Source: Verrucomicrobium spinosum DSM 4136 = JCM 18804 (GTDB lineage Bacteria; Verrucomicrobiota; Verrucomicrobiia; Verrucomicrobiales; Verrucomicrobiaceae). Taken from it: 64,000 nucleotides of DNA. The position numbers and the translations under genes were made by a program. Positions 7,897-18,341 of this stretch are shown here, piece after piece. Under the pieces are notes generated by a model, which was given only the letters and a program-made list of their open reading frames with translations, made no database searches and was not told the origin of the DNA. How positions within the stretch are numbered: position 1 is the first letter of the stretch; the number at the start of each line of letters is the position of its first letter. The stretch is from the NCBI RefSeq assembly GCF_000172155.1, contig NZ_ABIZ01000001.1:3753105-3817104 (forward strand), in the 5' to 3' direction.

Positions 7897-9123
7897 CTAT
7901 CTCTTTTGACCTCCCACGTCCGGCAGGAATGCCGTCAGCAGGCCGATCAGCGGCAGATAGGCGCACACTTGATACACATAATTGATGCTGGTGTGGTCAG
8001 CCAAATTGCCCAGCAGGGCAGAGCCAATGCCGCCCATCCCAAAGGCGAAGCCGAAGAAGAGGCCGGAGATCATGCCCACCTTGCCCGGCACCAGTTCCTG
8101 GGCATACACCAGAATGGCGGAGAAGGCGGAGGACAGCACCAGCCCGATGACCACGCTCAACACAGCGGTCGTGTACAATCCGGCATGCGGCAGCCAGAGA
8201 GTGAAGGGAGCCACGCCCAGAATGGAGGCCCAGATCACACGCTTGCGACCGAAGCGGTCACCCACCGGGCCACCCAGGATCGTCCCGGCTGCCACGGCGA
8301 ACAGGAACACGAACAGGTAGATCTGTGCGCTCTGCACCGGCAGATGGAAGCGGTCCATCAAGTAGAAGGTGTAATAGCTGGTCATGCTGGCCAGGTAGAA
8401 GTACTTCGAGAAGATCAACGCTCCCAGAATCGTCAGCGACCACACCACGGTGGAGGTGGGAAGCGCCGCATGAGCTGATTCCAGAGATTTCGCGGACTTG
8501 CGGTGTACCCGATGCAGATTGCGGGCCTGCCACAGGCCCACGTTCCACAACACGGCCACTCCCAGAAATGCCACCACAGAGAACCAGGCGATGGAGCCCT
8601 GACCGTGCGGCACAATGATCAAGGCGGCCAGCAAGGGTCCAATGGAGCTGCCAGCGTTCCCACCCACTTGGAACAGGGATTGCGCGAGGCCGCGGCGACG
8701 TCCCGCTGCCATATGAGCAATCCGGGAGGCTTCAGGGTGGAAGATGGCAGAACCCATGCCCACCAACGCGGCGGAGCCCAGAATGGAGGCAAAACTGCCG
8801 GCCATGGAGAGGGCCACCAGACCGCACAGGGTCAGCCCCATGCCGATGGGCAATGAGAACGGCAGGCTGCGCTTGTCGGTGTACCAGCCCACCAGGGGCT
8901 GCAACAGGGATGCCGTGACCTGGAAAGCAAAGGTGATCATCCCGAGCTGGCTGAAGGTGAGGTGATACGACTCTTTCAGCAGGGGGTAGATGGAGACGAG
9001 GAGCGCCTGGATGGTGTCGTTCAGCAGGTGGGAAAAGCTGATGGCGAACAGCACAGCATACACGGTCGTTTCCGCCGTTCGCAGGGTAGGCGACGGCATG
9101 TCTTCATTGCAGGTGGATTCCAT
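7897..9123 (-). CDS. fsr: MFS exporter, fosmidomycin-resistance (Fsr) type
   Basis: 408 residues with about twelve membrane segments. The LNDTIQALLVSIYPLLKES stretch in the first helix pair, YTDKRSLPFSLPIGM, and SAIFHPEASRIAHMAAGRRRG followed by QSLFQVGGNAGSS are characteristic of the Fsr branch of the major facilitator superfamily. These are proton-driven exporters first known from fosmidomycin resistance in E. coli, though natural substrates are poorly known. It lies downstream of, and on the same strand as, the AraC regulator, separated by 64 bp, so the two may be co-transcribed. An internal ATG at 9099 is an alternative start. Confidence 0.85.
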   Translation of the reverse strand: MESTCNEDMPSPTLRTAETTVYAVLFAISFSHLLNDTIQALLVSIYPLLKESYHLTFSQLGMITFAFQVTASLLQPLVGWYTDKRSLPFSLPIGMGLTLCGLVALSMAGSFASILGSAALVGMGSAIFHPEASRIAHMAAGRRRGLAQSLFQVGGNAGSSIGPLLAALIIVPHGQGSIAWFSVVAFLGVAVLWNVGLWQARNLHRVHRKSAKSLESAHAALPTSTVVWSLTILGALIFSKYFYLASMTSYYTFYLMDRFHLPVQSAQIYLFVFLFAVAAGTILGGPVGDRFGRKRVIWASILGVAPFTLWLPHAGLYTTAVLSVVIGLVLSSAFSAILVYAQELVPGKVGMISGLFFGFAFGMGGIGSALLGNLADHTSINYVYQVCAYLPLIGLLTAFLPDVGGQKR

Positions 9124-9187: not shown

Positions 9188-10078
9188 TCAGTGGTACTTT
9201 TCTCGGATTTGGTCTCTGAAGGATTCTGGAGCGGAGCCGGCATACCTCCGGAAGAAGCGGCTGAAATAGGAGGGATCGTGAAAGCCGAGGTCGTAGCCGA
9301 TCTCGGAGACGCTCAAGTCGGAATGCAGCAGCAGGCGTTTGGCATCCAGCAGGCGGCGTTGGCGGATGATGTCCCCGGCCGACCGTCCGGTCTGCTCGTG
9401 AACGATGTCGTTGAGATGGTTGGCGCTCACGCCCAGAATTTCAGCATAACCTCCCACGGTGGTTATTTCTTTGAATCGCTGTTCAACGGAGAGAAGAAAG
9501 TGCCGCACCAGTTGTCCGGCCCGTGACGCCTCCTTATGGGGATGCAGCCGTGCGTACAGCCGGTTTACCCGAACCAGGAAAAGACGCAGAATGGAACGCA
9601 TGGCGTCTGCTGCGTCCGGGAGCGCAGCGTCAAACTCAGACTGCAAGAGTGGAACCAGCGGCAGAATACCATCAGAATCTCCGTCTGGAATCTGTAGCAG
9701 CGCCGCGACATCCACCGAGAAGAAGAACGGGTAGTCGTACAGGACGCTCGGCGGCGTGGACCGGAGATCGAAGAACTCCTGGGAGAACGAAAGGGTGGTG
9801 CCTCCCAAATTGTCACTGGGACGAACGGTGTGCACCTGACCTGGACTTAGGAAGACAAGGGTATTGCCGCTCACCCGGTATTCCTGGAAATCATGCATCA
9901 CCTGCGCCTGTCCTTGCAGAATGAAGATTTGGAAGAACTCGTGGTAGTGGGGCTGGAGCCGCTCGGGATCCATGCGCACCGAGTCCATGAAAGGCACGAC
10001 CACCACGCCCTGCTGTCGCAGTTCGGCCTGACCTGTTGCGGTCATGCCGTAGTGGGGAATGGACTCTCGCCGGATCAT
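9188..10078 (-). CDS. AraC-family transcriptional regulator
   Basis: 296 residues. The N-terminal half is a cupin sensor domain (HYHEFFQIFILQGQAQV, then VFLSPGQVHTVRPSD). The last 100 residues form the two helix-turn-helix AraC domain, with GVSANHLNDIVHEQTGRSA and GYDLGFHDPSYFSRFFRRYAG. The ligand is unknown. I chose ATG 10078, which has GGTGGGA 7 bp upstream; a TTG at 10120 would add 14 residues. It is divergent from the diiron/desaturase operon across about 90 bp and in tandem with the Fsr exporter, so either or both may be its targets. Confidence 0.85.
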   Translation of the reverse strand: MIRRESIPHYGMTATGQAELRQQGVVVVPFMDSVRMDPERLQPHYHEFFQIFILQGQAQVMHDFQEYRVSGNTLVFLSPGQVHTVRPSDNLGGTTLSFSQEFFDLRSTPPSVLYDYPFFFSVDVAALLQIPDGDSDGILPLVPLLQSEFDAALPDAADAMRSILRLFLVRVNRLYARLHPHKEASRAGQLVRHFLLSVEQRFKEITTVGGYAEILGVSANHLNDIVHEQTGRSAGDIIRQRRLLDAKRLLLHSDLSVSEIGYDLGFHDPSYFSRFFRRYAGSAPESFRDQIREKYH

Positions 10079-10111
10079 CGGTTCGTCCCACCATGCTTGT
10101 CTCGCCGGATG

Positions 10112-10122
10112 ATTTGTCAAAT
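10112..10122. promoter_or_regulatory. Small palindrome between AraC gene and lipid-type operon
   Basis: ATTTG-T-CAAAT at 10112-10122 lies in the divergent intergenic space, with a second short inverted repeat GGTGT-ATTG-ACACC at 10153-10166 just before the operon's first ATG. Either could be a regulator site. Both are short enough to be chance. Confidence 0.3.
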
Positions 10123-10167: not shown

Positions 10168-10926
10168 ATGGCGAAATCACGAAGACTTTGTGGCATGAGT
10201 GCTGGAAGCATCGGTTCCCCCGTCGATCATCCGCCGTCGCACGCCACAGCTCCGCATATTCTGGCTGCTGCCAGGGCGGTGTTGGCAGAGCGCCCCATCA
10301 TCACCCAGTCGTACTTCACACGTCTGAGGGATGGTTCCATGTCCTATGCGGAGTTCGTCCGTTCCCAACAGCAGTTTTATTTCGCGGTGCGGTATTTTTC
10401 CCGTCCGATTGCTGCCCTGGTTTCGCGCTGTCCGGATTCCTCCATGCGGATGAATCTTGTGGAGAATCTGGCGGAGGAGCAGGGCGGCTTTTTACCTTCC
10501 CATGCCCATGATCGTACCTTCCTAAGCTTCCTGGAGAGCCTGGGTGCCGCAGCTCCCGAAAAGGAGGGGCCGGAGGTGAGGGCCTTCAATTGCGCCCTGC
10601 TCGGGTCCTGTTATGGAGAGGACCTGGAGATGGCATTTGCTTGCTTGGGAATCATAGAGCTGGCCTTCGCAGAGATATCCGCCTGGATCGCCAGCGCTGT
10701 GGTGGATCGCGGGTGGATCGCTCCGGACCGGCTGGTTCACTATGCCTTGCACGCGGAACTGGATCATCGGCATGCCGAGGAGTGCTTTGTGGTCATAGAG
10801 CCAAGGTGGGAGGAGTCATTGTCCCGGAGACAAGCCATCCAGCATGGCCTTGAGCTCGGGCGTTATCTTTTCTCCCGTCTATATGTGGATCTGGACGCGT
10901 TGAACCCTGCACTGGCCGACGAATGA
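10168..10926 (+). CDS. Haem-oxygenase-like diiron oxidase (HDO / TenA-PqqC fold)
   Basis: 252-residue all-helical protein of the iron-containing redox enzyme group within the haem-oxygenase-like fold. Candidate metal ligands fall in the order known for this group: an ENLAEEQGG helix (E103/E104), SHAHD (H112, H114), a middle acidic helix ELAFAE (E164, E169), and HAELDHRHAEE (H195, E197, D199, H200, H202, E204). Members include UndA (fatty-acid decarboxylase), SznF and CADD, all O2-activating diiron oxygenases. Its stop overlaps the next start (ATGA), implying translational coupling with a desaturase, so a fatty acyl or lipid substrate is a reasonable inference. Alternative start at 10195. Confidence 0.75.
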   Translation: MAKSRRLCGMSAGSIGSPVDHPPSHATAPHILAAARAVLAERPIITQSYFTRLRDGSMSYAEFVRSQQQFYFAVRYFSRPIAALVSRCPDSSMRMNLVENLAEEQGGFLPSHAHDRTFLSFLESLGAAAPEKEGPEVRAFNCALLGSCYGEDLEMAFACLGIIELAFAEISAWIASAVVDRGWIAPDRLVHYALHAELDHRHAEECFVVIEPRWEESLSRRQAIQHGLELGRYLFSRLYVDLDALNPALADE

Positions 10927-11903
10927 ACGGGAAGCAGTATCACCCCAGGCTGAGTGCTCAACTCGCCCGGGAATTACATGAGCATCAGCCCATGCGCCAC
11001 TATGCCCGGATGGGGTGTTTTGTGGCGATCTATGCAGCCGGTGCGGGCGCGGCATGGTGGTGCTCTGCATTTGTGGCATCACAACCTGCGTGGTGGTTGC
11101 TAATGCTGCCTTTCTATCTGGCAGCGGCCGGGGCGTTGCACGGGATCAGTCTGTTCACTCACGAAGCCGTGCACCAGACGCTCTCCTCGCATCCGGCCTG
11201 GAATCGAATTTTGGGTGCGGTCTGCGCCATCCCCGTCTTGCAGAATTGCTCTGCCTACCGGGTGTTGCACCTGCGGCATCACCATCACCTGGGTGAGGGC
11301 GGGGATCCTGATCATTATGCAAACTACACCCGGTGGTCGTGGATGGTGTCGGTGTTGAACTGGTTGAGGCTGCTCGTGGGGTATCCAGTGTACATCGTTG
11401 CCATCCCGATTCTCGGATTCAAACATGGATCAAGCCGGGATCGCGTGGGCATCCTGCTGGAACTGGCCGCCACTTTAGCGCTGGGGATGGTGTTGCTGTT
11501 GGCTCCTTTACCCGAGGGCCTGTTGTGGCATGGCTGGTTGGTGCCCATGATCATCATCAATTTCATGGTCAATGTGCGGGGCATGAGTCAGCACACACTG
11601 CTGCCGGAGGCGACAGATGAGGTGCGGGGGACGCGGAGCATTCTTACTGGTCCCGTGGTTTCCTTCTTCATGTGCCATGAGAACCTTCATCTCGAGCACC
11701 ACCTCTATCCCGGAGTGCCGTGGTACCATCTGCCCAAGGTGCATCAGGCGCTCCGTCCGCAGCTGGCGGCCATGGGGGCACCGTACATCGGGTCGTACTC
11801 GGCCTTTGTTTTGAGGTTTATGCGCTATACTGTGAATCGAGGCCGTACGGGGGCCTGTGATGTGGGCCGGCTATCGGCCGGGGACGACGGGAGGAAATCA
11901 TGA
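10923..11903 (+). CDS. Membrane fatty-acid desaturase
   Basis: 326 residues with the three histidine boxes of the membrane diiron desaturase/hydroxylase family: HEAVH (80-84), HLRHHHH (116-122) and HENLHLEHH (252-260), plus a conserved SQHTLLPE near residue 224. Two hydrophobic hairpins (about 30-75 and 140-210) embed it in the membrane. It introduces a double bond or hydroxyl into an acyl chain or related lipid using O2 and reduced electron carrier. It overlaps both neighbours by 4 bp (ATGA junctions), the clearest sign that the cluster is one operon. The exact substrate and regiochemistry are unknown. Confidence 0.85.
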   Translation: MNGKQYHPRLSAQLARELHEHQPMRHYARMGCFVAIYAAGAGAAWWCSAFVASQPAWWLLMLPFYLAAAGALHGISLFTHEAVHQTLSSHPAWNRILGAVCAIPVLQNCSAYRVLHLRHHHHLGEGGDPDHYANYTRWSWMVSVLNWLRLLVGYPVYIVAIPILGFKHGSSRDRVGILLELAATLALGMVLLLAPLPEGLLWHGWLVPMIIINFMVNVRGMSQHTLLPEATDEVRGTRSILTGPVVSFFMCHENLHLEHHLYPGVPWYHLPKVHQALRPQLAAMGAPYIGSYSAFVLRFMRYTVNRGRTGACDVGRLSAGDDGRKS

Positions 11904-13024
11904 CCGCAGGTGCCAAGCTGCCGCCACCGGATGCCTGGGCTGTGGAAGCCGCCACATGGCCCCTGGCGTTTGCTCAGGTGCGGGAGGACCCCCGCGTGGA
12001 TCTGGAGGTGATCCGATTGCTCCCGCCTCGCGCGGAGGTGGTGATGATCGCCTCAGGGGGTGAGACGGCAGTCTGTCTGGAAAGGCACGGCCTGGGGCGG
12101 CTCACCCTTGTGGACATCAATCCTGCGCAATTGGCTCTGGCGAAGCTCAAGCGGCATCTGGCAAGGCAGCACGCTGTTGTCTTCTCCCTGCCTTTGCTCG
12201 GACATGCCAGCATGCCTCCAGGGGCCAGGCAGGTGGCGCTCTCCGCGCTGCTGGATACGTTGGAACTCGACAGGGGAATTCTGGGCCCGTTGGAAGGAGT
12301 GGCAGCGCTGGGTCCGGATCATGTCGGGCGCTATGAAATTACTTTTGCAGAATTGTGGAAGGAGCTTTCGGCCGATCCGGAGACTTTGCAGGTGCTGCTC
12401 ATGTCCGACCGGATGCCTGGGGCCGTGGAACAGTTGGGACCCGAGACCCAGTTGGGGCAACTGCTGGAGCAGGCTCTGAGCAGGGTCATGAGTCTGCAGA
12501 ATCTGGTCTGTCTCTTTGGAGAAGAGGCCACGAGAAATCCCCGCCAGCCTTTTGACCGGCATTTTGCAACGCGGCTGCGGGCCAATGCGAGGCGCGGTTT
12601 TGCCGCGGAGAACCCCTTCCTCTGGCAGATGCTGGTGGGCATGTTTCCTCCTGCGCAGCCCTATGACTGGCTGCTGCCGGGGCCACTTTCCTCCCAGGTG
12701 GACTGGCTGCCTGCTGACCGCATCCAGTATCTTCCGGGCAGGATGAATGAGGTGCTGGAGAACCTGCCGGATGCGAGTGCAGATTTCATCCACTTGTCGA
12801 ACATCCTGGACTGGCTTTCTCCGGAAGTGGCTACTGCCAGCCTAAAGAGCGTGGCCCGAGTGTTGCGTCGGGGCGGGCGGGTGCTCGTTCGCCAGTTGAA
12901 TTCCTCGCTGGAAATCCCCGCCCTGCATGCAGGGTTGCAGTGGGACGCCGCTCTTGGGGCGAGCCTTCATGCCAGAGACCGCAGTTTCTTCTATACTGCG
13001 ATTCACGTGGGAAGAAAGGAGTGA
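11900..13024 (+). CDS. DUF3419 / BtaA-like S-adenosylmethionine 3-amino-3-carboxypropyl transferase
   Basis: 374 residues similar to BtaA, which moves the 3-amino-3-carboxypropyl group of SAM to diacylglycerol to make the homoserine headgroup of betaine lipids. Family marks seen here are FAQVREDPRVDLEVI (24-38), the SAM-site loop MIASGGETAVCLE and VDINPAQLALAKLK (71-84). A late LSNILDWLSPE plus RGGRVLVRQLNSS finish the methyltransferase-like fold. The partner methyltransferase BtaB that would complete a betaine lipid is absent. Instead a GNAT gene follows 1 bp later, so the product may be a different aminolipid or amino-acid conjugate. Acceptor unknown. Confidence 0.75.
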   Translation: MTAGAKLPPPDAWAVEAATWPLAFAQVREDPRVDLEVIRLLPPRAEVVMIASGGETAVCLERHGLGRLTLVDINPAQLALAKLKRHLARQHAVVFSLPLLGHASMPPGARQVALSALLDTLELDRGILGPLEGVAALGPDHVGRYEITFAELWKELSADPETLQVLLMSDRMPGAVEQLGPETQLGQLLEQALSRVMSLQNLVCLFGEEATRNPRQPFDRHFATRLRANARRGFAAENPFLWQMLVGMFPPAQPYDWLLPGPLSSQVDWLPADRIQYLPGRMNEVLENLPDASADFIHLSNILDWLSPEVATASLKSVARVLRRGGRVLVRQLNSSLEIPALHAGLQWDAALGASLHARDRSFFYTAIHVGRKE

Positions 13025-13025
13025 G

Positions 13026-13985
13026 ATGGAGGTGTTGTGCTTTCAGCATGCAGTTCCCTCTGGGCTGGAGCGGACGTTGCAGGAGTTCGAGGAACAATTT
13101 TCCTACCCGCTCGGAGAAGGGGAGTCGTTTCACGTGTCCCATGGCGGCAGATACTTGAACTTCTTCCACGCCATGGGACAGGCCAGCCTCTGTGTCGCCA
13201 TGAGACGGGAACAGGTGTTGGGTACCTTGGTGGGAGTGCGGCGGCCCATGAGGCTGGCGGACGGGCGGGTGGTCGCGGCCACCTATGTGTGTGATCTCAA
13301 GGTGGCGTCTGGAGGGCTTCGTGGCCGGGTTTTGTTGGGCCTGGGCAGGGCCTTGGAGGCGGTGTGGCGGGAGGCCGGTGGGGGCCCCGGGTATGGAGTG
13401 GTGATGCAGGGGACCGCGCAAGCGCCCAATGCCTACACAGGGAGAGGCCTGCTTCCCGGATTCACGAGCGTGGCGGATCTGGTGATTTTCAGATTGCCAG
13501 TTCAAGGAGTCGAGACGCTGGATGAAGAGGTACGCGTGGTGGATCTTGCAGAGGCGCAGCGGGGATTCACTGAGTTGACCGTGAGCGGAATCGTCCCCAT
13601 TGGAGGAACGCCCTCGAATCGGTCCTCTATGAATCCCGTGCCTCTGGTCTTGGGAGATCCGGTGCGCGCATCTGGCGTGGTCGAGGACACCCGGCTGGGG
13701 AAGAGACTGGTCGTCAGCGGGGGGCAGGAGATGAAAGCGGCGCACCTGTCTCACTTTGCGTTCCGTTCCGCCGGGGATGGCGCGCGCTTGATTCGTGCTG
13801 CTTTGTCTGAGTCGGATCGTTGCGGGTTCCCCTCGCTGTTCGTCTGCGTGCCCGCCGCAAGGGCGGACGCGTTGCAGAAGTGTCTGGCGGATCTCAAGCC
13901 TACGGTGGCCCCGGCGGCGGTGTATGCGCATGACGCTGGGATGAATGGCGGGGCCGACTGGTGGGTGCATTCCTCGGAGATCTGA
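13026..13985 (+). CDS. GNAT-fold acyltransferase-like protein
   Basis: 319 residues, begun at the ATG one base after the DUF3419 stop. The pattern FHVSHGGRYLNFFHAMGQ, VLGTLVGVRRPM and TYVCDLKVASGGLRGRVLLGLGRALE resembles the beta4-alpha3 acyl-CoA binding region of GNAT N-acyltransferases. A second, weaker half follows to the C-terminus. In the operon it could acylate the amino group created by the DUF3419 enzyme; that is inference. The assignment rests on motif pattern only, so the function is tentative. Last gene of the overlapping set; a gap of 78 bp separates it from the next gene. Confidence 0.6.
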   Translation: MEVLCFQHAVPSGLERTLQEFEEQFSYPLGEGESFHVSHGGRYLNFFHAMGQASLCVAMRREQVLGTLVGVRRPMRLADGRVVAATYVCDLKVASGGLRGRVLLGLGRALEAVWREAGGGPGYGVVMQGTAQAPNAYTGRGLLPGFTSVADLVIFRLPVQGVETLDEEVRVVDLAEAQRGFTELTVSGIVPIGGTPSNRSSMNPVPLVLGDPVRASGVVEDTRLGKRLVVSGGQEMKAAHLSHFAFRSAGDGARLIRAALSESDRCGFPSLFVCVPAARADALQKCLADLKPTVAPAAVYAHDAGMNGGADWWVHSSEI

Positions 13986-15041: not shown

Positions 15042-15191
15042 CCGCTTCCTCCTGAGAGAGATTCCTGAAAGAAGGGACGTCTTTTGGCGGTTGCGACAGA
15101 CGAAAAAAACAGGTGATTTCTGTCCAACACAATGGGCGAAATTGCCTTCTTCTCCCGTGCGGCCCGTTCGCTTATCGGCCGGATGACTTTC

Positions 15192-18100
15192 ATGATTTTC
15201 GTTCCTCCCATGATCCGCCTCAGCTTCATCGTTCCTGTACTGGCTGTCGCCACCTTGACCCCTGCGGCCGAGCCGGACGCCAACCGGGTTGCTCTGGAGT
15301 TTTTTGAGAAGGAGATCCGGCCCATTCTCGCCAATCGCTGCTACAGTTGCCACGGCGAGGAAAAGCAGAAAGGCAGTCTCCGTTTGGATGACATCGGGCA
15401 CGTCCTGGCGGGCGGTGATTCTGGTCCCGCCCTGGTGGCTGGCAAGCCGGATGATTCGCTGATCGTCCAGTCCATTCGCTATACTAAAGATGACTTCCAG
15501 ATGCCTCCAAAGGAGAAGCTTCCGGATGACGAGATCGCCAAGCTCGAAAAGTGGGTCAAGCTGGGAGCCCCCTGGCCCAAGTCCGCTGCCACCGTGCGTT
15601 CCACGGTGGATGAATTCGGCTTCACCAAGGAAGACCGGGCCCAGTGGGTGTTTCAGCCGCTGGCCAATCCCAAGCCCCCTGAGCTTCCAGCGAACAAGTG
15701 GGTGAAGGGTCGTATTGACTCATTCGTCGCAGCCAAGCAGGCGGAGATGAAGCTGGTGCCCGCGCCCGCTGCCACACCGCAGGAGCTCGTTCGCCGGGTT
15801 TACTTTGACCTGCATGGGCTCCCGCCGTCGCCCGAGCAGATCGAGTCATTTACCTCCCGCCATGATGACAAGGCCTACGAGAAGCTGGTGGATGAACTCC
15901 TGGCCAGCCCCCGCTACGGCGAGCGCTGGGCTCAGCACTGGCTGGATCTGGTGCGCTATGCGGAGAGTGATGGCTACAATGCCGACGGCTATCGTGATTC
16001 CGTCTGGCCTTATCGCGATTGGGTGATCAAGGCGCTCAATGACGATATGCCCTACGACAAGTTCGTCCGGTTGCAGCTGGCTGGAGACGAGATCGATCCC
16101 GGCAATCCCGAAGTGCTGATCGCCACGTCCTACCTCCGGAACGGGATCTATGAGTGGAACCAGCGCGATGTCCGGGGCCAATGGGACCTGATTGTCACGG
16201 ACATGACGGACAATGCGGGCGAGGTGTTCTTGGGGTTGAGCTTTGGCTGTGCCCGCTGCCACGACCACAAGTTTGATCCCATTTTGCAGAAGGACTACTA
16301 TCGTCTGAAAGCGTTCTTTGCGCCCGTGCTCTGGCGGGATGACATGAAGCTGGCCACCGCAGAGGAGCAGGCGGCTCATGCCAAACTGCAAGCAGAGTGG
16401 GAAGCCGCCACGGTGGACATTCGCAGCAAGATGGATGCGATGACCCTGAAGTCTCTGGATGGAAGCATGAAGCGCGCAAAGGGCCGTTTCTCAGAAGATC
16501 TACAGGCCATGATGAACAAGGAGCCCGACCAGCGGGAGACCTTGGAACAGCAGCTTGCCTGTCTTGCCCAGCGGCAGGTGGAGTACGAGCGCGTGCGCTT
16601 CGACCCCATGAAGACGCTTAAGAAGCCTGAGGACAAAGCGGCGTATCAAGCGCTGGTCGAAGAGCTCAAGAAGTTCGACAATCTGAAGCCGAAGCCGCTG
16701 ATGGATGCGTTCGTCGCGACCGATGCCGGTCCCAAAGGGCCTGCGAACCTGTTGAAGACTCGCCGAGGAGAAGCGGATATCGCTCCGGGATTCCTCACTA
16801 TTCTTGAGCCGAATGAGCCCGAGATTCAACCCATCGGCAAGTCCACGGGACGCCGCAGTGCCCTGGCAAAATGGATCACCCGTCCGGACAACCAGCTTTC
16901 CACCCGTGTGATCGTGAACCGTGTCTGGCAGTACCACTTTGGCCGCGGCCTCTCTGGAACCCCGAGCGACTTGGGTAACATGGGAGAAAAACCGACCCAC
17001 CCCGAACTGCTGGACTGGCTTTCCCGCCGGTTTGTCGCAGAAGGATGGAGCCTGAAAAAGCTTCATAAGGAGATCCTCATGTCAGCCACCTACCGGCAGA
17101 CGGCGTTGCGTCAGCCTCCGGTTGAGTACGGTCAGATCGATCCTGGTAACAAGTTCCTCTGGCGCTTCCCGCCGCGTCGCTTGGACGCCGAGCAGGCTCG
17201 TGATGCCATGCTCATGGCGAGCGGTGAACTGGATCTCACGATGGGCGGTGCGGCTTCGGACGCCAAGGAGCCCCGACGCTCCATCTACACCCGGAAGAAG
17301 CGCAACAGTCAGGACGAACTCCTACGGAGCCTGGACGCGCCTGCGAACTTCACCAGCACCTCCGAGCGCCAAAGCACCACCACGCCTACTCAGGCGCTGC
17401 TGATGGTGAATGGCGACTGGATCAACTCTCGCTCCCGCAAGCTGGCCACCAGGGCCACCAGCGTCGAAGAGGCCTGGAAATTCACTTTGGGTCGGTCGCC
17501 CACTGATCGCGAGAAAAAGCTGGTTGATGCCTTTTTTAAACGACGCTTGGGGGCCGATGCTCCTGCAGTCAACGGCAATCCCTCCTCAGCAGACTCCCAT
17601 GCGGACTTCAAGGTCGGCACCCCGCAGGAACGCCTGCTGGTCAAAGGGGCTCCCGAGGAAGGGGACGATTTCACGGTGGAATCTGTGTTCACTCTCAACA
17701 GCGTGGACGCCGGGGCCTCCGTGCGCACGGTGGCTTCGCGTTGGAACAGCGGCAAAGACACGCAGGAGTCGTTTGGCTGGAGCCTGGGTGTCACAGGGGA
17801 GAAATCCCGTTTCAAACCGGGCAATCTCATCGTGCAACTCGTGGGAGAAGACGACAATGCCAACATTGCCCACGAAGTGGTGGCATCCGACATCCGGATC
17901 GGCCTTGGCAAGCCTTACCATGTCGTGGTGCATGTTTCCGCAACTGAAGGCGTGGTGGAGTTCAAGGTCACAGATCTGAGCTCGCCCGGGACCCCTCCGC
18001 AGACGGCAGAGGTCAAGCACCGGGTACGTCGAGGGCTGGGCAAGGGTGTGTCCGAACTGGTGGTTGGCGGCTTGAACCAGAGAGCTGCGCCGCATCAGTG

Positions 18101-18341
18101 GGACGGCCGTCTGGACGCCCTGCGAATCACCCGGGGGGAACTGCCTGTGGAGCAGGCGACAGCCAATGCTTCCAGCTGGAAGGACGGCCTCCTTGTCTGG
18201 GATGCCAACCGCCCGTTGGATCCCCGGATGGAGTGGGCCGGCTACGACGGAAAGTCGGACTCCGACAACCCCTTCCAGAGGGCGCTTGCGGATCTCTGTC
18301 ATGTGCTCCTCAACAGCAATGAATTTCTCTATCTGCACTGA
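15192..18341 (+). CDS. PSD1 / planctomycete cytochrome C domain protein with LamG-like domain
   Basis: About 1049 residues. After a signal peptide (hydrophobic 8-20, cleavage near AAEP) comes a PSCyt1 haem domain with CYSCH (C50, C53, H54). A DUF1549 (PSCyt2) domain follows, containing the signature RYGERWAQHWLDLVRYAESDG (split around residues 240-260). A DUF1553 (PSD1) domain carries NRVWQYHFGRGL and RRLDAEQARDAML, and a concanavalin/LamG-like insertion sits near the C-terminus. Family members are exported c-type cytochrome-like proteins abundant in Planctomycetes and Verrucomicrobia and often tied to polysaccharide use. The DUF1501 partner follows 46 bp downstream. Possible upstream starts at 15132 and 15183. 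Confidence 0.9.
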   Translation: MIFVPPMIRLSFIVPVLAVATLTPAAEPDANRVALEFFEKEIRPILANRCYSCHGEEKQKGSLRLDDIGHVLAGGDSGPALVAGKPDDSLIVQSIRYTKDDFQMPPKEKLPDDEIAKLEKWVKLGAPWPKSAATVRSTVDEFGFTKEDRAQWVFQPLANPKPPELPANKWVKGRIDSFVAAKQAEMKLVPAPAATPQELVRRVYFDLHGLPPSPEQIESFTSRHDDKAYEKLVDELLASPRYGERWAQHWLDLVRYAESDGYNADGYRDSVWPYRDWVIKALNDDMPYDKFVRLQLAGDEIDPGNPEVLIATSYLRNGIYEWNQRDVRGQWDLIVTDMTDNAGEVFLGLSFGCARCHDHKFDPILQKDYYRLKAFFAPVLWRDDMKLATAEEQAAHAKLQAEWEAATVDIRSKMDAMTLKSLDGSMKRAKGRFSEDLQAMMNKEPDQRETLEQQLACLAQRQVEYERVRFDPMKTLKKPEDKAAYQALVEELKKFDNLKPKPLMDAFVATDAGPKGPANLLKTRRGEADIAPGFLTILEPNEPEIQPIGKSTGRRSALAKWITRPDNQLSTRVIVNRVWQYHFGRGLSGTPSDLGNMGEKPTHPELLDWLSRRFVAEGWSLKKLHKEILMSATYRQTALRQPPVEYGQIDPGNKFLWRFPPRRLDAEQARDAMLMASGELDLTMGGAASDAKEPRRSIYTRKKRNSQDELLRSLDAPANFTSTSERQSTTTPTQALLMVNGDWINSRSRKLATRATSVEEAWKFTLGRSPTDREKKLVDAFFKRRLGADAPAVNGNPSSADSHADFKVGTPQERLLVKGAPEEGDDFTVESVFTLNSVDAGASVRTVASRWNSGKDTQESFGWSLGVTGEKSRFKPGNLIVQLVGEDDNANIAHEVVASDIRIGLGKPYHVVVHVSATEGVVEFKVTDLSSPGTPPQTAEVKHRVRRGLGKGVSELVVGGLNQRAAPHQWDGRLDALRITRGELPVEQATANASSWKDGLLVWDANRPLDPRMEWAGYDGKSDSDNPFQRALADLCHVLLNSNEFLYLH

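Follow-up and report, generated by a model that had tools for sequence, protein, structure and literature searches.

What might a bacterium make with a compact operon that encodes two oxidases, an S-adenosylmethionine (SAM)-dependent transferase, and an acyltransferase? We examined such an operon in Verrucomicrobium spinosum DSM 4136, at positions 10168 to 13985 of a 64,000-nucleotide stretch (the window; positions 3,753,105 to 3,817,104 of contig NZ_ABIZ01000001.1) of a host genome that consists of one 8.22-Mb contig. All four genes lie on the forward strand. Gene A (10168-10926) encodes a haem-oxygenase-like diiron oxidase (HDO) of 252 amino acids with the Pfam domain PF14518, and gene B (10923-11903) encodes an integral-membrane desaturase or hydroxylase of 326 amino acids with three histidine boxes (PF00487). 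Gene C (11900-13024; 374 amino acids) belongs to the SAM-dependent DUF3419 transferases (PF11899), in a clade of its own, and is a putative 3-amino-3-carboxypropyl transferase, while gene D (13026-13985; 319 amino acids) encodes, according to a predicted model, a double-GNAT acyltransferase of the N-myristoyltransferase (NMT) type. With slightly less than even confidence, we read the operon as a dedicated pathway in which C would add a 3-amino-3-carboxypropyl group to a probably lipid-like acceptor, D would N-acylate the amine, and A and B would carry out oxidations.

Gene content and distribution of the operon

The original prediction described four coupled genes on the same strand, and this was confirmed by junctions of -4 bases at A/B and at B/C, each with an ATGA overlap, and of +1 base at C/D. 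Using profile searches, we found strong matches to A, C, and D in 21 of 386 genomes of the order for each gene, and the three lists of genomes were identical; the remaining 365 genomes had no strong match to A, C, or D. A match was counted as strong at an E value of <1e-30 for D, <1e-70 for C, and <1e-90 for A, whereas looser thresholds gave 26, 57, and 21 of the 386 genomes, respectively. The genomes dropped were five with weak matches to D, one of them (G538) a 46-residue C-terminal piece, and 36 that matched the C profile, all at <70 bits; those inspected among the latter were other DUF3419 proteins, and one (G309) held a 52-residue piece that may be a fragment of C. The 386 genomes are related to one another, and a Fisher value for the coincidence of A, C, and D is therefore not a true probability. 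B belongs to a large family, and its presence was judged at the fetched loci rather than by genome-wide search.

The 21 genomes comprise that of the window, two of the same genus (loci L003 and L004), and 18 others (loci L051 to L068). The gene order was A-B-(X)-C-D on one strand at all 21 loci as far as the contigs extend, where X is an optional fifth gene. One contig starts inside B, with A of that genome on another contig (L065), and one stops inside D (L067). Apart from two wide A-B gaps that are considered below, the spacing at the other loci ranged from overlaps up to 66 bases. The gene set is thus co-conserved outside the host genome. Mean column identity was 70% for B, 57% for C, 50% for A, and 49% for D, in sequence sets that differ from gene to gene. 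In another family of the same phylum (G086, loci L069/L113), the order was C-D-A; B had no match on the 16 kb of this locus, but the contig starts about 200 bases before C. None of A, B, C, and D was present at L070, which was fetched for a weak match to D.

A contig scan for close relatives of C alone returned five loci, all of them from Verrucomicrobiota. Outside the phylum, our searches covered 72,556 plasmid records, of which one matched C, one matched D, and seven matched A. The only plasmid shared by the three genes was from Mycobacterium riyadhense, where the order C-A-D is followed by an RND-family transporter and the identities are 40% for C, 43% for A, and 34% for D. A-C-D thus seems to form the transferable core of the operon, to which B and X would have been added in Verrucomicrobiota. 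On two linear plasmids of Streptomyces, an HDO closely related to A (about 44% identity; L023, 11286-12684, and L024, 11286-12672) stands beside a conserved EF-hand protein.

A predicted N-myristoyltransferase-type fold in D

D had no Pfam or NCBIfam match at an E value of ≤1, including the Pfam NMT families, and its Mycobacterium homologue exceeds the cut-off of a GNAT model by less than one bit (21.5 against 20.7 bits). A model of D predicted from 21 sequences (predicted local distance difference test [pLDDT], 90.5) nevertheless aligned with NMT over 291 of its 319 residues (VIA Z score, 20.8; root mean square deviation, 3.8; best Foldseek E value, 7.8e-14). All 50 rows listed for D in each structural search were NMT, and MshD, HisAT, and the double-GNATs of the clavulanic acid pathway were not among the matches listed. 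D is 8 to 12% identical to the NMT chains, and its length at the aligned loci (284 to 351 amino acids) compares with 341 to 446 residues for the NMT chains listed. A plain aminoglycoside-type acetyltransferase was rejected as a candidate: the profile matches were weak (best E value, 0.0065) and covered about 70 residues, whereas NMT spans the whole model.

The C-terminus of D stood out in two ways. In the rows for full-length human NMT1, residue 319 of the D model pairs with NMT1 residue 496, the last residue of one protein with the last of the other. Moreover, Glu-Ile closes the sequence of D in all 22 complete copies, which represent two phyla, whereas A, B, C, and X have variable ends. In human NMT1 the catalytic base is reported to be the C-terminal carboxylate, that of Gln496, and an NMT from which the two C-terminal residues were removed reportedly keeps its kcat, with Glu244 as a substitute (PMC7048800). 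A 2016 review presents the use of the C-terminus as catalytic base as unique to NMT among the GNATs (PMC4964394). A structure search published in 2025 defines the NMT type by a protein C-terminus that reaches the active site; it reportedly detected NMT-type folds in bacteria and archaea, with no function assigned to them, NMT having previously been reported as limited to eukaryotes (PMC12219266). On its predicted model, D is probably a double-GNAT of the NMT type and not an ordinary GNAT, a correction to the GNAT label of the original prediction. An N-terminal glycine is an unlikely substrate for D.

A DUF3419 clade separate from BtaA

C matches DUF3419, the family of BtaA, with an E value of 1.9e-27 (96.8 bits; cut-off, 28.2), and is 93% identical in the close relatives Verrucomicrobium sp. 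BvORR034 and BvORR106. A tree of 43 DUF3419 rows placed the Verrucomicrobiota proteins in three clades, each with 100% bootstrap support: that of C (15 rows, including one from Mycobacterium), that of BtaA (12 rows), and a third kind (15 rows). C and BtaA are joined to each other by long branches, and the Rhizobium row is also long; this affects the order of the clades but leaves their separation unchanged. The label of the BtaA clade rests on an adjoining BtaB-like gene, the first BtaB having been recognised by adjacency and motif, and such a gene lies within the fetched region in six of the seven BtaA-class regions (all but L102) and also in genome G338.

Over all 27 loci compared, C and BtaA were 14 to 22% identical (about 18%). 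Of 47 columns conserved at ≥90% in both groups, 24 carry the same residue, among them the SAM-side positions E29-D30, S52-x-G54, D72, N74, Q77, D304-W305, D360-R361, and Y365. The other 23 differ, and include the CWED motif, which reads VRED in C, and the DHxDW region. By sequence, C is a member of a separate DUF3419 clade and not a BtaA; the family named in the original prediction was correct, but its "BtaA-like" label exaggerated the closeness to BtaA. The activity reported for BtaA is aminocarboxypropyl transfer (PMC10491745), and membership in the same family suggests that C may transfer 3-amino-3-carboxypropyl as well.

The absence of BtaB, also claimed originally, held up. The host genome has one DUF3419 gene, and its best relative of BtaB is a 30% identical methyltransferase (E value, 6.1e-8) about 1.2 Mb from the operon. 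At an E value of ≤1e-3, neither of two BtaB queries matched any of the operon loci in the 21 genomes, and their single match among all the loci searched was to a methyltransferase near A in Streptomyces (E value, 7e-5). Because genome G338 holds the operon together with a standard, adjacent BtaA-BtaB pair, the operon is unlikely to represent betaine-lipid synthesis, in agreement with the original prediction.

The third DUF3419 clade possibly belongs to another lipid pathway. The regions inspected adjoin a phosphoenolpyruvate (PEP)-utiliser or PEP-synthase-like protein. By eye, dolichol-kinase-like and AMP-ligase-like genes were also seen nearby at L109 to L111 and L120, and PEP-utilisers were identified by Pfam at L012. 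On Rhizobium plasmid CP041205.1 (L072, 780-6098), genes annotated as KAS III, NAD(P)-dependent oxidoreductase, MBL hydrolase, and CoF synthetase precede a further DUF3419 gene, after which comes a hypothetical protein of 368 amino acids that looks acyltransferase-like by eye; this may be one more natural-product cluster with DUF3419.

The two oxidases

A matches Haem_oxygenas_2 (PF14518; E value, 1.2e-16), and its profile matches include the CADD 4-aminobenzoate synthase (E value, 1.9e-14) and 4-chloro-allylglycine synthase (BesC; E value, 3e-7). A CADD-type 4-aminobenzoate synthase was rejected: the score against the NCBIfam CADD model was 40 bits (cut-off, 200), and in an alignment read by hand the sacrificial Tyr and Lys of CADD (Y27 and K152) are replaced by F50 and I174. 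The diiron ligand motifs noticed from the sequence recurred in all the A proteins compared, with E103, E104, H114, E164, H195, D199, and H202 invariant in 23 of 23 proteins from two phyla. With either E103 or E104, these positions fit the three-histidine/three-carboxylate iron ligand set reported for MboA (PMC13185094). The same source indicates that HDOs have apparently specialised in amino acid pathways and that, in several of them, Fe1 is where the carboxylate of the substrate binds (PMC13185094).

B matches FA_desaturase (PF00487; E value, 3.5e-44). The three histidine boxes of the original prediction (H80/H84, H116/H119/H120, and H256/H259/H260) and H224 were invariant in 19 of 19 proteins, some of them partial. 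The best NCBIfam match of B was GntB (E value, 3.1e-21), at 76.1 bits far below the cut-off of 380 for membership in that family.

An optional PAP2_3 gene and the surroundings of the operon

X lies between B and C at 10 of the 21 loci and encodes a PAP2_3 membrane protein (PF14378; E values of 6e-14 to 3.5e-16 in the three tested). Its motifs PSxH and RxHYxxD were invariant in 10 of 10 proteins, and the His-His-Asp pattern is that of lipid enzymes like Aur1 and sphingomyelin synthase. The host genome has one PAP2_3 relative of X, outside the operon (L117, G000:C1:882787-883575); by appearance, a PlsC-like acyltransferase gene and a PEP-synthase-like gene lie near it.

Upstream of the operon and divergent from it are a gene for an AraC-type regulator (9188-10120, reverse strand), which is nearest to HpaA but below the HpaA cut-off, and one for a major facilitator superfamily (MFS) transporter (7897-9123, reverse strand) that by eye resembles fosmidomycin-resistance proteins. 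The regulator is separated from A by 47 bases. We did not count these two genes as parts of the operon because they are confined to the same-genus loci L003 and L004, with no match at the other operon loci by tblastn. When the region was scanned for promoters and terminators, the values lay within one standard deviation of those from shuffled sequences. Downstream of the operon, positions 15132 to 18341 (forward strand) encode a large protein with a CxxCH motif, which by appearance resembles the secreted cytochrome-type proteins of planctomycetes and Verrucomicrobia.

A proposed pathway and its rivals

In the pathway that we propose for the operon, we infer the acceptor, the order of the steps, all of the reactions, and the transfer of 3-amino-3-carboxypropyl rather than methyl. 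C would transfer the SAM-derived 3-amino-3-carboxypropyl group, an alpha-amino acid group, to an acceptor that is probably lipid-like. D would pass an acyl group from acyl-CoA or an acylated acyl carrier protein to the amine installed by C, with its own C-terminal carboxylate as the base. A would oxidise the amino acid part, as an enzyme of a class that often grips substrate carboxylates, and B would introduce a double bond or a hydroxyl group into the acyl or lipid part. Where X is present, it would supply or recycle the acceptor, for example, diacylglycerol from phospholipid. A lipid-like product is favoured by B being a membrane desaturase, by the PAP2_3 enzyme, by the predicted NMT-type fold of D, and by the RND transporter next to the Mycobacterium genes. 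Room for a small molecule is left by the HDO and by a core from which X, and perhaps B, can be absent. The full version of the proposal, which we regard as possible but on balance doubtful, is a new class of bacterial aminolipid with a SAM-derived homoserine-type head group that would be N-acylated by an NMT-type enzyme using its C-terminal carboxylate as base and then oxidised by the diiron oxidase and the desaturase. The N-acylated or oxidised aminolipid suggested in the original prediction is partly supported, its N-acylation having become likelier with the NMT-type fold of D.

Several observations weigh against the proposed pathway. The coupling is not equally tight everywhere, since with the starts chosen the A-B gap is 614 bases at L053 and 507 bases at L068. 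The genes can also occur apart: in 17 kb of a metagenome-assembled genome of the Chthoniobacteraceae (L007), C is the only one of the four genes present, and C and D are absent within 25 kb of the relatives of A on both Streptomyces plasmids inspected. No match to B was found within 31 kb around the Mycobacterium C-A-D genes, and 11 of the 21 loci, that of the host among them, lack X, so a membrane-lipid product is not required by the core. Because C and BtaA carry different residues in 23 of the 47 columns that are conserved in both, the acceptor of C, and even the group it transfers, may differ from those of BtaA. Finally, methyltransferases lead the structural matches listed for the C model, and the authors of the 2025 structure search caution that the activity of bacterial NMT-type double-GNATs is not readable from the fold (PMC12219266).

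Among the alternatives, the strongest, which we consider rather doubtful but a serious contender, is that the product is a soluble unusual amino acid or amine. C would then alkylate a small acceptor, A (like BesC or CADD) and B (like GntB) would oxidise it, and D would add a short acyl group as a step toward the product or as self-protection. This would suit the nearest solved HDO relatives of A by sequence, 4-aminobenzoate synthase and 4-chloro-allylglycine synthase, as well as the best NCBIfam match of B, although the latter is far under its cut-off, and the existence of A-C-D cores that lack X and, in the case of the Mycobacterium plasmid, have no B in the vicinity. The counterevidence is not decisive at any point. 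The predicted fold of D is that of a long-chain acyltransferase, although the double-GNAT HisAT is described as most active with short chains (PMC12219266); B is membrane integral, and 10 of the 18 fetched loci L051 to L068 add a PAP2_3 lipid-type enzyme; and the Mycobacterium genes adjoin an RND transporter.

It is unlikely, though less so than the readings that follow, that C is an ordinary methyltransferase and that the product of the operon is methylated, N-acylated, and oxidised. The C model (pLDDT, 91.4) has a SAM-methyltransferase fold interrupted by a long helical insertion, and its methyltransferase matches had Z scores of 13.5 to 12.4 among the 50 rows listed (the top one over 162 residues); two aminocarboxypropyl transferases, the aminopropyl-type MccD (Z score, 12.6) and, in Foldseek, the nocardicin NAT, appeared only among such matches. 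However, several aminocarboxypropyl transferases have a methyltransferase fold anyway. The known activity of BtaA, a DUF3419 protein, is aminocarboxypropyl transfer, and many SAM-side residues are common to C and BtaA.

We think it very unlikely that D acts as a genuine N-myristoyltransferase on proteins or peptides, in an operon that modifies a peptide or protein. The full-length NMT fold and fixed C-terminus of D would agree with such a role, but most D proteins do not reach the length of the NMT chains listed, their identity to those chains is low, and C and A suggest small substrates that resemble amino acids. Nor did a conserved precursor gene come to notice, in an analysis that made no search aimed at one and listed no open reading frames of <100 codons. 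The least probable reading, that C is the BtaA of the host and the operon makes a betaine lipid (diacylglyceryl trimethylhomoserine) or diacylglyceryl homoserine, draws on the shared Pfam family and SAM-site residues and on an X that could provide diacylglycerol, but ordinary betaine-lipid synthesis was rejected on the tree, the missing BtaB in a host with no second DUF3419 gene, and the presence of both systems in G338.

Novelty and implications

Literature searches judged by title or the start of the abstract, mostly without subscription journals, returned no description of the four-gene set, in line with the original prediction that no described pathway has it. The papers listed on DUF3419 dealt with algae, plants, and a fungus. 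Clusters described for N-acyl tyrosine carry other genes (PMC12479983). Each of the enzymes belongs to a known superfamily; what is new to us is how they are combined, the distinct DUF3419 clade, and the presence of an NMT-type enzyme from bacteria within a defined set of genes.

The bacterial NMT-type enzyme occurs here in a small operon, in two phyla, with a partner that should create the kind of primary amine that would be acylated. Because the operon partner should make such an amine, the function of the enzyme becomes directly testable. If the aminolipid reading is true, an NMT-type enzyme of bacteria would thereby acquire a function, and the architecture of the myristoyltransferases would seem to have been put to use in making small-molecule lipids. 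The split of DUF3419 into at least three clades within one phylum also calls for caution in treating a DUF3419 gene as a marker of betaine lipids. In addition, the set of four or five genes is a handle for finding a new lipid or natural product.

Comparison with known systems

A has PF14518 and the three-histidine/three-carboxylate ligand set in common with CADD, BesC, UndA, and MboA, but its gene partners differ from theirs. B belongs to the same superfamily of three-His-box membrane desaturases as GntB, the guanitoxin arginine hydroxylase, and the other FA_desaturase enzymes. C has the Pfam family and many SAM-site positions in common with the BtaA/BtaB system, from which it is set apart by its separate clade, its altered CWED and DHxDW motifs, and a BtaB partner that was not found. 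D resembles NMT1, NMT2, and the bacterial NMT-type double-GNATs in its predicted full-length double-GNAT fold, its fixed C-terminus, and the alignment of its last residue with that of NMT1; it differs from NMT1 and NMT2 in being bacterial, in its low identity, and in its place in a biosynthetic operon with a SAM transferase. Pathways for ornithine lipids and N-acyl amino acids, of the OlsB and NasY/FeeM types, acylate free amino acids. Those pathways and the operon would both lead through an N-acylated amino acid to an aminolipid; in the operon, unlike in the OlsB and NasY/FeeM types, the amine would first be put in place by a SAM-dependent aminocarboxypropyl transferase.

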